NCBI GenBank assembly: GCA_944325315.1
Contig: CALVAA010000007.1
Location: 1 to 64,000, forward strand
Direction of reading: 5' to 3'
DNA: 64,000 nucleotides
Source of the DNA: Candidatus Gastranaerophilales bacterium
GTDB lineage: Bacteria; Cyanobacteriota; Vampirovibrionia; Gastranaerophilales; Gastranaerophilaceae
This document shows positions 26,082 through 28,945 of the stretch, in pieces. The notes under the pieces were generated by a model, which was not told where the DNA came from, made no database searches, and saw only the letters and a list, made by a program, of their open reading frames with translations. The position numbers and the translations under genes were made by a program. Positions within the stretch are counted from its first letter, which is position 1; every line of letters starts with the position of its first letter.

Positions 26082-26113
26082 AATTAAAAGAGCTTTTTAG
26101 CTCTTTTAATTTT
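26081..26113. terminator. Bidirectional terminator
   Basis: AAATTAAAAGAGCT-TTT-AGCTCTTTTAATTTT inverted repeat with A and T runs on both sides, between convergent genes. It overlaps the stop codon of the CDF gene. Confidence 0.85.
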
Positions 26114-26771
26114 TCACGTCGATTAATATTTTTACCGTGTTTTTGATTAATCCTATTGCCCATTTGATAACTAAAATGCCGCCTAAAATTCCAATAATCG
26201 AATCAAGATAAACTATTGTAAATATTTTGCCGATAACAAGTGCAAGAATTGCCAGAATAGAAGTCAGAGCATCCGCCAGAATGTGGTAATATGCGGCTTT
26301 AAAATTGTAGTCTGTTGTTTTTTTGTTTTCTTTTTTATGGTTTAATTCCATAATTAAAATGCAAGCACTGTTTACTATAAGCCCGATTATGGCTATTAAA
26401 ATTGCTTCGTCAAATTTTATTACAAGAGGGTTTATAAACCGGCTTACAGCCTCAAATATAATATAAATACCGCTTAATCCCAGAAATAATGAGCTGGTAT
26501 AGCCTGCAAGAGTTCCGATTTTCTCCGGACCGTTTATAAAAATATTTGAATTTGAGTATTTTCTAACCAAAATGTAAGCCGCATAAGTTAGCCCCAAAGC
26601 AAGAACATGGCATCCCATATGATATCCGTCCGCTAAAAGCGCCATTGAATTTGTATAATAGCCGTAAATTACCTCCGCTATCATTGTGATTAAAGTAAGA
26701 AGTATGACAATGAGTGTTCTTTTTTCATTCTCCAGAGAGATTTTGTGGTGATGATTGTGTTCATTGTGCAT
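26106..26771 (-). CDS. Cation diffusion facilitator (Zn/Co/Cd exporter), short form
   Basis: The start is the ATG at 26771 with GAGG 7 bases upstream; an in-frame ATG at 26834 would lie upstream of its own promoter. The protein has 221 residues and begins with a histidine-rich tail (MHNEHNHHHK). Six membrane helices follow; the transport-site residues are in ALLADGYHMGCH (helix II) and YHILADALTS (helix V), the HxxxD pattern of zinc-type CDFs. The cytoplasmic C-terminal domain is missing: the chain stops right after helix VI. It faces an SmtB-type repressor across a 127-base divergent control region. Confidence 0.92.
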   Translation of the reverse strand: MHNEHNHHHKISLENEKRTLIVILLTLITMIAEVIYGYYTNSMALLADGYHMGCHVLALGLTYAAYILVRKYSNSNIFINGPEKIGTLAGYTSSLFLGLSGIYIIFEAVSRFINPLVIKFDEAILIAIIGLIVNSACILIMELNHKKENKKTTDYNFKAAYYHILADALTSILAILALVIGKIFTIVYLDSIIGILGGILVIKWAIGLIKNTVKILIDVKN

Positions 26772-26804
26772 TTTTTTATCCTCATTTGAAGTAGATCTAT
26801 TTAT

Positions 26805-26834
26805 ATTATAGTTGAATAGTTGTTCAACTGTCAA
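26805..26834 (-). promoter_or_regulatory. CDF promoter with SmtB-type operator as spacer
   Basis: On the minus strand TTGACA (26834-26829) and TATAAT (26810-26805) are separated by exactly 18 bases. Those 18 bases are the palindrome GTTGAATAGTTGTTCAAC (26811-26828), which contains the TGAA-N6-TTCA core of ArsR/SmtB operators. A repressor bound there would block RNA polymerase directly. The start codon is ~27 bases after the expected transcription start. Confidence 0.88.
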
Positions 26835-26862
26835 TATGTTTGAAACAAATCTTTACAATATT

Positions 26863-26892
26863 TTGACATTTGAACAAATGTTCAACTATAAT
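26863..26892 (+). promoter_or_regulatory. arsR/smtB promoter with operator as spacer
   Basis: TTGACA (26863-26868) and TATAAT (26887-26892) flank an 18-base spacer that is the near-palindrome TTTGAACAAATGTTCAAC (26869-26886), again TGAA-N6-TTCA. The start codon at 26899 is where transcription should begin, with no room for a ribosome site. Confidence 0.88.
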
Positions 26893-26898
26893 TAAACT

Positions 26899-27207
26899 AT
26901 GACTTCATTTGATTTTAAAAATCTTTTAGATAGTGATACTTTGTATGATTTATCAGACTTTTTTAAAGTTATGTCTGACCCTACAAGAATTAAGCTTTTG
27001 TTTGCGCTTGAAAAGGAAAAAATGTGTGTCGGAGACTTGTCAAATGCTTTAAATATGACAAAATCCGCAGTTTCTCATCAATTAAAAATTTTAAAAAGCG
27101 CTAAACTGGCAAAGTCTGAAAAAAATGGAAAATACGTTTTTTATTCTCTTTGCGATTACCATATTAAAACGGTTTTAGAAATGGCATTAGAACATGTTAA
27201 AGAGTAG
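26899..27207 (+). CDS. ArsR/SmtB-family zinc-type repressor
   Basis: 102 residues with a winged helix-turn-helix (VGDLSNALNMTKSAVSHQLKIL). The zinc site at the last helix, as in SmtB and CzrA, is complete: D86, H88, H99 and E102 with the same spacing as in SmtB. One cysteine pair typical of arsenic sensors is absent, so zinc (or cobalt) is the likely signal. It would leave DNA when metal binds and so induce itself and the divergent CDF exporter. The message appears leaderless. Confidence 0.94.
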   Translation: MTSFDFKNLLDSDTLYDLSDFFKVMSDPTRIKLLFALEKEKMCVGDLSNALNMTKSAVSHQLKILKSAKLAKSEKNGKYVFYSLCDYHIKTVLEMALEHVKE

Positions 27208-28153: not shown

Positions 28154-28204
28154 TTGACGAAAAATAATAAAAGTTTTAATATATTGATACCCCCCGGGGG
28201 TGTA
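28154..28204 (+). promoter_or_regulatory. Promoter with CsoR-type operator
   Basis: TTGACG (28154-28159), a 17-base spacer and TAATAT (28177-28182) form a promoter. At 28187-28204, over the expected start point, lies ATACCCCCCGGGGGTGTA, whose core is the palindrome ACCCCC-C-GGGGGT. Such GC-rich palindromes flanked by TA are the known targets of copper-sensing CsoR repressors, and a CsoR-type gene is 0.5 kb downstream. In this AT-rich DNA the motif stands out sharply. Confidence 0.85.
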
Positions 28205-28231
28205 GTAGCAGATATGTTAAAAGGAGAATTT

Positions 28232-28615
28232 ATGAAAAAACTACTTAGCGCAGCTTTTATAATAGGCGCACTGTTTTTGACAAATGCTGTTTTTGCATGT
28301 GAAAAATGTAAATGCGAAAACAATGATTGTGCTTGTGCTTGTCATAAAGTTTGCGATAAAGACTGCGATTGCGGCTGCCACAACGGCGAAAAATGCGCTT
28401 GTAAAGATTGCAAATGCGCTTGTCATAAACAATGCGATAAAGATTGTGCTTGCGCTTGTCATAAAGTTTGCGATAAAGACTGTGATTGCGGATGTCAAAA
28501 CGGCGAAAAATGCGTATGCGAAAAATGTGACTGCAAAGATTGTGCATGCAAAAAACAAAGTAAATTTAAAAAATTATTTAAAAAATCAAAAATTAAATGT
28601 AATTGTGAAGAATAA
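28232..28615 (+). CDS. Exported Cys/His-rich metal-binding protein
   Basis: 127 residues from the ATG at 28232, placed by AAGGAG. A signal peptide (residues 1-22, ending NAVFA) is followed by a mature part of 105 residues holding 31 cysteines and 4 histidines in CxC, CxCxC and CxCH patterns. Two 23-residue copies of the same segment lie at residues 35-57 and 74-96, differing at two positions. The tail (residues 108-122) is lysine-rich. This looks like an exported metallothionein-like sponge; the upstream CsoR-type operator suggests copper. The cysteine right after the cut could also be a lipid site, but the -2 phenylalanine is atypical. Confidence 0.85.
   Translation: MKKLLSAAFIIGALFLTNAVFACEKCKCENNDCACACHKVCDKDCDCGCHNGEKCACKDCKCACHKQCDKDCACACHKVCDKDCDCGCQNGEKCVCEKCDCKDCACKKQSKFKKLFKKSKIKCNCEE
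28334..28519 (+). repeat. Internal tandem-type duplication in the Cys-rich gene
   Basis: Bases 28334-28402 and 28451-28519 encode the same 23-residue cysteine module with a 117-base period. Related shorter units fill the gap. It marks growth of the protein by in-frame duplication. Confidence 0.85.
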
Positions 28616-28624
28616 TAGTATTTT

Positions 28625-28658
28625 AGGCTCTTTTGGAATTTTCCTAAAAGAGCCTTTT
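28625..28658 (+). terminator. Terminator between the Cys-rich gene and csoR
   Basis: AGGCTCTTTT and AAAAGAGCCT arms around a short GGAA/TTCC extension, followed by TTTTT. The csoR ribosome site (AAGGA) begins right behind it, so csoR is expected to depend on readthrough and be made in smaller amounts. Confidence 0.85.
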
Positions 28659-28669
28659 TAAGGATTTAT

Positions 28670-28945
28670 ATGGTACATGTTGATAAAAAAAAGACTTTGA
28701 GGCTTTTGAATACCGTAAAGGGGCAAATTGAAGGTTTGTCGAAAATGATTGAAAATGACAGAGACTGCATTGATATTAGTAATCAAATTCTTGCAAGCCA
28801 ATCAATATTAAAAAAAATTAATATGGATATTCTAAAAGGCCATTTTGAACATTGCATAAAGGAATCTTTTGAAAAAGGAAGTAAGGCTGAAAGCGAAGAA
28901 AAGATAAAAGAAGTAATAGAAGTTTTATCAAAGCTTATAAAATAA
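28670..28945 (+). CDS. csoR: CsoR-family copper-sensing repressor
   Basis: 91 residues, all-helical. The copper-sensor triad Cys-His-Cys is intact at C33, H58 and C62, with the spacing (25 and 4) of Mycobacterium CsoR; the second-shell tyrosine/glutamate region is in the C-terminal helix. These residues separate CsoR from nickel (RcnR) and formaldehyde (FrmR) sensors. Cu(I) binding would release the operator at 28187-28204 and raise production of the exported Cys-rich protein. Confidence 0.9.
   Translation: MVHVDKKKTLRLLNTVKGQIEGLSKMIENDRDCIDISNQILASQSILKKINMDILKGHFEHCIKESFEKGSKAESEEKIKEVIEVLSKLIK

Follow-up and report, generated by a model that had tools for sequence, protein, structure and literature searches.

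A CsoR-type repressor gene and operator linked to a predicted exported metallothionein-like protein in gut Melainabacteria

Bacterial copper defence is usually told as sensing and pumping. The locus described here raises the question of what a repressor of the CsoR family would control when the gene in front of it encodes a Cys-rich exported protein and not a copper pump. The window, the whole stretch of 64,000 nucleotides that was analysed, comes from the 1.81-Mb genome (97% complete draft) of a gut bacterium of Candidatus Gastranaerophilales, an order within Candidatus Melainabacteria. At positions 28154-28945 it carries, in this order, a promoter, an operator, the Cys-rich exported-protein gene, a hairpin, and csoR, with the following features.

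28154..28182, + strand: sigma-70-type promoter, -35 TTGACG, 17 bp, -10 TAATAT (motif scan and relatives)
28188..28202, no strand: predicted CsoR type-2 operator TACCCCCCGGGGGTG (genome-unique, co-occurring with csoR, matching the consensus)
28232..28615, + strand: predicted metallothionein-like exported protein, 127 aa, 31 Cys (ORF and homologues)
28232..28297, + strand: predicted Sec-type signal peptide MKKLLSAAFIIGALFLTNAVFA, cleavage probably after VFA (read by eye)
28325..28396, + strand: Cys-rich 24-residue block 1, aa 32-55 (internal repeat comparison)
28442..28513, + strand: Cys-rich 24-residue block 2, aa 71-94 (67/72 bases as in block 1)
28625..28655, + strand: intergenic RNA hairpin that probably attenuates transcription as a terminator or stabilises the RNA (-17 kcal/mol, z -2.8)
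28670..28945, + strand: csoR, CsoR-family (DUF156) repressor, 91 aa, with C33, H58, C62, D32 (position A) and E81 (position B) (PF02583 and alignment)

The repressor belongs to the CsoR/RcnR (DUF156) family, with PF02583 covering the whole protein (E = 1e-24, 87 bits against a cut-off of 22.8) and CsoR entries of the PDB matching it at E 3.5e-14. C33, H58, and C62 stand at the spacing of the CsoR ligands, in agreement with the initial annotation, which had described a CsoR-type gene with an intact Cys-His-Cys triad. The genome of the window contains one copy of csoR, and matches of this protein to phage records were weak and partial only, so that a phage origin is not indicated.

The GC palindrome had been read as a CsoR-type operator over the start point, and our examination bears this reading out. 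First, when we compared the site with the type-2 consensus TAC-N9-GTA (PMC3902906), the pseudopalindrome, the G-tracts, and the associated promoter were all present; the site reads TAC-N9-GTG, one base off, and the operators of G109, G213, and G026 read TAC-N9-GTA, giving an overall match of TAC-N9-GT(A/G). Second, the operator lies 7-11 bp downstream of the -10 element in the 12 measured loci, which places it over the point where transcription is expected to start. Third, the 1.81-Mb genome contains TACCCNNNNGGGGTG in exact form only once, at TACCCCCCGGGGGTG, and the window, at 32% GC, has no other CCCC...GGGG site with a short spacer. When the genome was scanned more loosely, with up to two mismatches, 78 matches were obtained against 48 for the reversed control, and thus only the exact site is informative. 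The TTGACG-17-TAATAT promoter, as a bare motif, is not more frequent than in shuffled sequence; its architecture is repeated in relatives, where TTGACA or TTTACA stands at a comparable distance before the operator.

The order has csoR-linked Cys-rich genes in 14 genomes or more, with a distribution that extends to another family. The complete arrangement of promoter, operator, Cys-rich gene, and csoR is repeated in the same-genus relatives G011 and G027 (contigs CANPYC010000046 and CANQAV010000004, both MAGs of Candidatus Gastranaerophilales) and in G023, G045, G008, G026, G056 (split over two contigs), G071, G109, G213, G180, and G401, and in G035 the Cys-rich gene and csoR are paired and no operator was found upstream. 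Among Cys-rich genes with a readable upstream region, the operator precedes 13 of the 14 that adjoin csoR and none of the 17 without csoR (Fisher p = 7e-8, a value that ignores kinship among the genomes). Operator and csoR thus come and go together whereas the Cys-rich gene persists, and we regard this co-occurrence as good evidence that CsoR acts at the palindromic operator. The comparison of mature regions and neighbourhoods that the initial annotation had proposed supports CsoR, the operator, and the exported Cys-rich protein as one regulatory unit conserved across the order. As 17 relatives have retained a Cys-rich homologue but neither csoR nor the operator, metal induction is not indispensable to the job of the protein.

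In the same-genus, csoR-less species G022, G020, G019, G017, and G025 (L034, L035, L037-L039), the Cys-rich gene occupies the syntenic site, which lies ahead of a HAD-phosphatase gene and fliD just as it does in the window; csoR and the operator were lost there or never present, and the proteins have 16-17 Cys and long Lys/Glu/Pro/Ala tails with the terminus ENKPIVIETVGLDK or one near it. In one other genus (g8; L186, L193, L195-L197, L199, and L200), csoR-less genes encode exported-type proteins with 22-30 Cys and a conserved KKGCPL-type C-terminus. The GC palindrome is absent at these g8 genes, and this branch is probably constitutive or otherwise regulated.

We then considered what the target gene encodes. 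All 31 Cys of the 127-aa protein lie in its 105-residue mature part (29%), which agrees with the about 30% stated previously for the mature part of a secreted protein. These Cys form 16 CxC motifs, and the composition is consistent with a metal-thiolate protein. A 24-residue block occurs twice at a spacing of 39 residues, with 23 of 24 residues and 67 of 72 bases identical, and we interpret it as a recent internal duplication; the duplicated modules reported before are thus real, with a repeat length of 24 residues, close to the 23 given there. No Pfam or NCBIfam model, those of the known bacterial metallothionein families included, matched the protein at E up to 1. We infer that the protein binds metal in a metallothionein-like manner. 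A different purpose would be export for redox buffering, or as a disulphide-bonded surface or defence peptide, with CsoR reporting a stress such as persulfide. CstR-type CsoRs sense persulfide by two Cys, and in several csoR-less relatives the retained protein has fewer Cys and carries long tails rich in Lys and Glu, as such a purpose might allow. However, CstR is devoid of the His ligand that is kept here as His58, and a role in metal binding is suggested both by the dense CxC motifs and by the descent of the regulator from copA-linked CsoRs; we consider the redox or peptide role improbable.

The putative metal-binding protein would act outside the cytoplasm. Its N-terminus, MKKLLSAAFIIGALFLTNAVFA, is signal-peptide-like by eye and ends in VFA, and 20 of 20 homologues keep the MK(K/N) start and the hydrophobic core while the mature parts diverge, a pattern consistent with export via Sec. 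We also considered a lipoprotein, and the sequence does not fit the lipobox [LVI][ASTVI][GAS]C, as VFA/C (slash at the cleavage site) has Phe at -2, again by eye. The homologous signals end in TLA/C or ALA/C, or have no Cys at +1 (AYA/AAC and SFA/EEN), and these endings together with the lipobox mismatch make signal peptidase I the likelier enzyme. If the hydrophobic stretch were inefficient for export, the protein could work inside the cell or carry metal outward. The conserved signal-peptide-like start on an otherwise diverging protein speaks against this alternative, and so does the fact that Sec moves unfolded chains, which would make a metal-loaded cluster an unlikely cargo. Action inside the cell has a parallel in MymT, which is under the CsoR paralogue RicR and is described as intracellular Cu(I) sequestration (PMC10470581), but we regard either form of this alternative as very improbable, and continue with export.

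To place the regulator, we examined its best 80 relatives in the genome collection. In eight, which are loci of the Gastranaerophilales type, csoR is preceded by a Cys-rich gene that is either whole or cut by the end of the contig, and two adjoin DmeF-type CDF genes (L058 from Elusimicrobia, and L112); the other 70 are accompanied by a full P1B-ATPase ORF in 64 cases and by a partial ATPase or CopZ in 4. Four ATPases tested from these copA-type neighbours scored well above the copper-ATPase cut-off. In the trees, the window CsoR falls in a 12-row clade whose members are all linked to Cys-rich exported proteins (support 98/95). An adjoining second clade (96/97) mixes Cys-rich-linked, DmeF-linked, and unassigned CsoRs, and both clades are nested in a larger group (100/94) of otherwise copA-linked CsoRs. 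With 90 columns and many open forks, the trees do not fix the order of events; on the simplest and most likely reading, a regulator of the copA type came to be attached to an exported metallothionein-like protein instead.

Which metal this regulator senses is a separate matter. Copper had been deduced from the Cys-His-Cys triad, and this deduction is not secured, because the triad has no power to predict the metal and the second-shell Tyr is the best predictor of Cu(I) sensing (PMC4235346). In the window CsoR, position A (residue 35 of M. tuberculosis CsoR, Tyr there) is Asp32, and Glu81 is kept at position B; owing to Asp32, the protein is not classed here as a proven Cu sensor. Outside the order, all 70 of the closest, copA-type CsoRs have the second-shell Tyr. 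Among the Cys-rich-linked CsoRs, those of G045, G008, G026, G109, G213, G401, and L052 have Tyr, and those of the window, G011, G027, G023, and G180 have Asp. Asp is found separately in the second clade, whose DmeF-linked members have Asp or Glu, and on this distribution the Tyr-to-Asp change probably arose twice.

The change allows a reading in which the circuit is the same and the effector is not Cu(I): the Tyr-to-Asp change would have re-tuned CsoR so that it responds to Ni(II), Co(II), or Zn(II), the metal that the exported protein would then bind. Besides D32 itself, this is favoured by the neighbouring-clade CsoRs with D or E, which pair with genes for DmeF-type CDF proteins (Co/Ni exporters), and by InrS, which senses Ni with the same Cys-His-Cys, these ligands not separating the metals (PMC4235346). 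On the contrary, the older branches of the pure clade (the seven Tyr-bearing CsoRs above) keep Tyr, the operator, and the protein type, the acidic residue typical of InrS at position C is Lys78 here, and Glu81 is retained; moreover, the DmeF-like gene of the window adjoins an ArsR gene, and the genome has no second operator. We consider a non-copper effector rather unlikely on balance. We favour Cu(I), with some reserve, as the likeliest effector, given that the regulator has a copA-linked ancestry, that Tyr-bearing sisters share its operator and target, that Glu81 is retained, and that the InrS-type residue is missing. As a side observation, the sister clade paired with DmeF-type CDF genes and carrying Asp or Glu for Tyr (L157, L160, L163-L165, L168, L112, and L058) forms a natural series for metal-specificity switching.

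When we searched the 97% complete genome of the window, we found no heavy-metal P1B-ATPase (TIGR01525, TIGR01511), no HMA/CopZ domain, no Csp repeat (PF03860, DUF326), by which the Cys-rich protein is not a member of Csp1, and no haem-copper oxidase subunit I (PF00115). In the 14 control genomes, the ATPase and HMA searches were positive in 13 or 14 and that for PF00115 in 8. The case for the absence of P1B-ATPase and HMA from this draft is strong but not final. In G011, G027, and G008, the three genomes scored among those that have a P1B-ATPase along with the Cys-rich gene and csoR, the pumps are of Cd/Zn type by score, and neither csoR nor an operator-like site adjoins them. G035 is the exception: at L143 (2227-4568), a P1B-ATPase that scores near, and slightly above, the Cu-ATPase cut-off has just upstream of it a second gene of the CsoR family, with TATCCCCCCATAGGGGATA as an operator-like site. 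A Cu-type ATPase above the cut-off is present in 3 of the 57 genomes of the family, and this rarity indicates that the missing copper pump is a family habit and not a consequence of the locus.

A strict replacement of copA by the metallothionein is weakened by the same survey, as most genomes of the family are without a Cu-type ATPase whether the locus is present or absent. We offer only tentatively, as possible, the wider proposal that in gut Melainabacteria external soak-up replaced ATP-driven copper efflux, with a former pump CsoR now controlling only an exported metallothionein and part of the clade re-tuned, by Tyr to Asp, to another metal. The initial annotation had also called the Cys-rich gene the only linked target. 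This holds for CsoR, with one operator and one csoR, and fails for the neighbourhood, since a DmeF-like CDF gene with its own ArsR gene lies 1-2 kb upstream. These two genes, encoding a DmeF-like CDF cation exporter (NF033827, 225.8 bits against a cut-off of 250) and an ArsR/SmtB-type regulator, stand head to head at 26106-27207 with TTGAAC/GTTCAA-type dyads between them, as a second metal-resistance module nearby.

Between the Cys-rich gene and csoR, a terminator had been proposed. A stable hairpin is present in the window, although a consensus terminator scan did not flag it and only four or five U follow its stem. Where the gap between the genes is at least 51 nt, relatives have a hairpin of unrelated sequence at the same place, with short or absent U-tracts; in G027, G008, and G026 the gap is at most 15 nt and has no hairpin. 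The element is common yet not universal, and the further proposal that the terminator keeps the repressor low does not apply generally. Attenuation of csoR by the hairpin is plausible in the window without being the general case. No promoter can be fitted between the two genes, so transcription of csoR most likely comes from read-through, which would make the gene autoregulated.

Based on these observations, we suggest an autoregulated, single-target metal-stress switch, most likely responding to Cu(I), with the exported protein as the sink, a model that we think has somewhat better than even prospects. Metal-free CsoR, bound to the GC palindrome over the start point, would shut off the two-gene operon of the Cys-rich protein and csoR. 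A cytosolic rise of a thiol-loving metal, with Cu(I) as the likeliest candidate, would load the Cys33'-His58-Cys62 site, and the metal-bound CsoR would leave the DNA. The Cys-rich protein would then be made in quantity and exported through Sec, and its Cys clusters could tie up metal outside the inner membrane before re-entry, while read-through past the hairpin would yield a little new CsoR to reset the switch. A cytosolic sensor with an exported sink is an indirect defence. Protection seems likelier than storage, as neither an oxidase-type copper enzyme nor a pump was detected.

The closest known systems are the CsoR-copZA and copA-csoR operons (Bacillus, Clostridia, Collinsella; M. tuberculosis cso), which share the repressor family, the Cys-His-Cys ligands, and the type-2 operator. 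In these operons, too, csoR follows the target gene, and their CsoRs are the direct phylogenetic neighbours of ours; in contrast, the target here is neither a copper ATPase nor a chaperone but an exported Cys-rich protein, the search of the genome yielded no P1B-ATPase, and Tyr is replaced by Asp. The SmtA/BmtA/PmtA metallothioneins are also small and Cys-rich with a metal-thiolate-type composition, whereas the protein of the window has many more Cys, a predicted signal peptide, and no Pfam or NCBIfam match. SmtA-type genes are usually under the ArsR-family SmtB. InrS and the DmeF-linked Ni/Co sensors share the family and the ligands, and relatives of the window CsoR stand beside dmeF, but the target gene differs and the acidic C residue is missing. 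Csp1 of methanotrophs is exported, Cys-rich, and Cu-induced (PMC7558416), and export and Cys-richness are likewise predicted here; however, Csp1 is a Tat-exported folded four-helix bundle, whereas the protein of the window is a low-complexity CxC repeat. RicR-mymT of Mycobacterium tuberculosis also places a CsoR-family Cu repressor over a Cys-rich metallothionein (PMC10470581). In contrast to the present locus, RicR controls several loci, its lineage is distant, and MymT is not of the same sequence family as far as tested. MymT is not known to be exported.

CsoR-family control of a metallothionein (RicR-MymT, PMC10470581) and exported copper storage (Csp1, PMC7558416) are already known. The open literature searched on Gastranaerophilales or Melainabacteria with metallothionein or CsoR contained nothing on this locus, and what appears new is a CsoR switch with an exported metallothionein-like protein as its sole operator-bearing target in pump-less gut Melainabacteria. 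If the model is true, the coupling of a pump-type sensor to an exported metal sponge, in an order mostly without a Cu-type ATPase, would represent a different strategy, and the sponge could influence copper or zinc for neighbours and host. The clade, in which Tyr, Asp, or Glu at one site is paired with copA, metallothionein, or dmeF, would also allow a direct test of the long-standing question of what determines metal choice in CsoR proteins.

Finally, many of the exported Cys-rich proteins carry a short basic-aromatic C-terminal patch (FKKLFKK, FRLFRR, FKIFKK, FFGFLKR, or FLGIFKRK), after which come K(I)KCNC or GCP-type motifs, at 28540-28612 in the window and in the homologues L002-L007, L042, L051, and L147. 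This patch is a possible membrane or envelope anchor.
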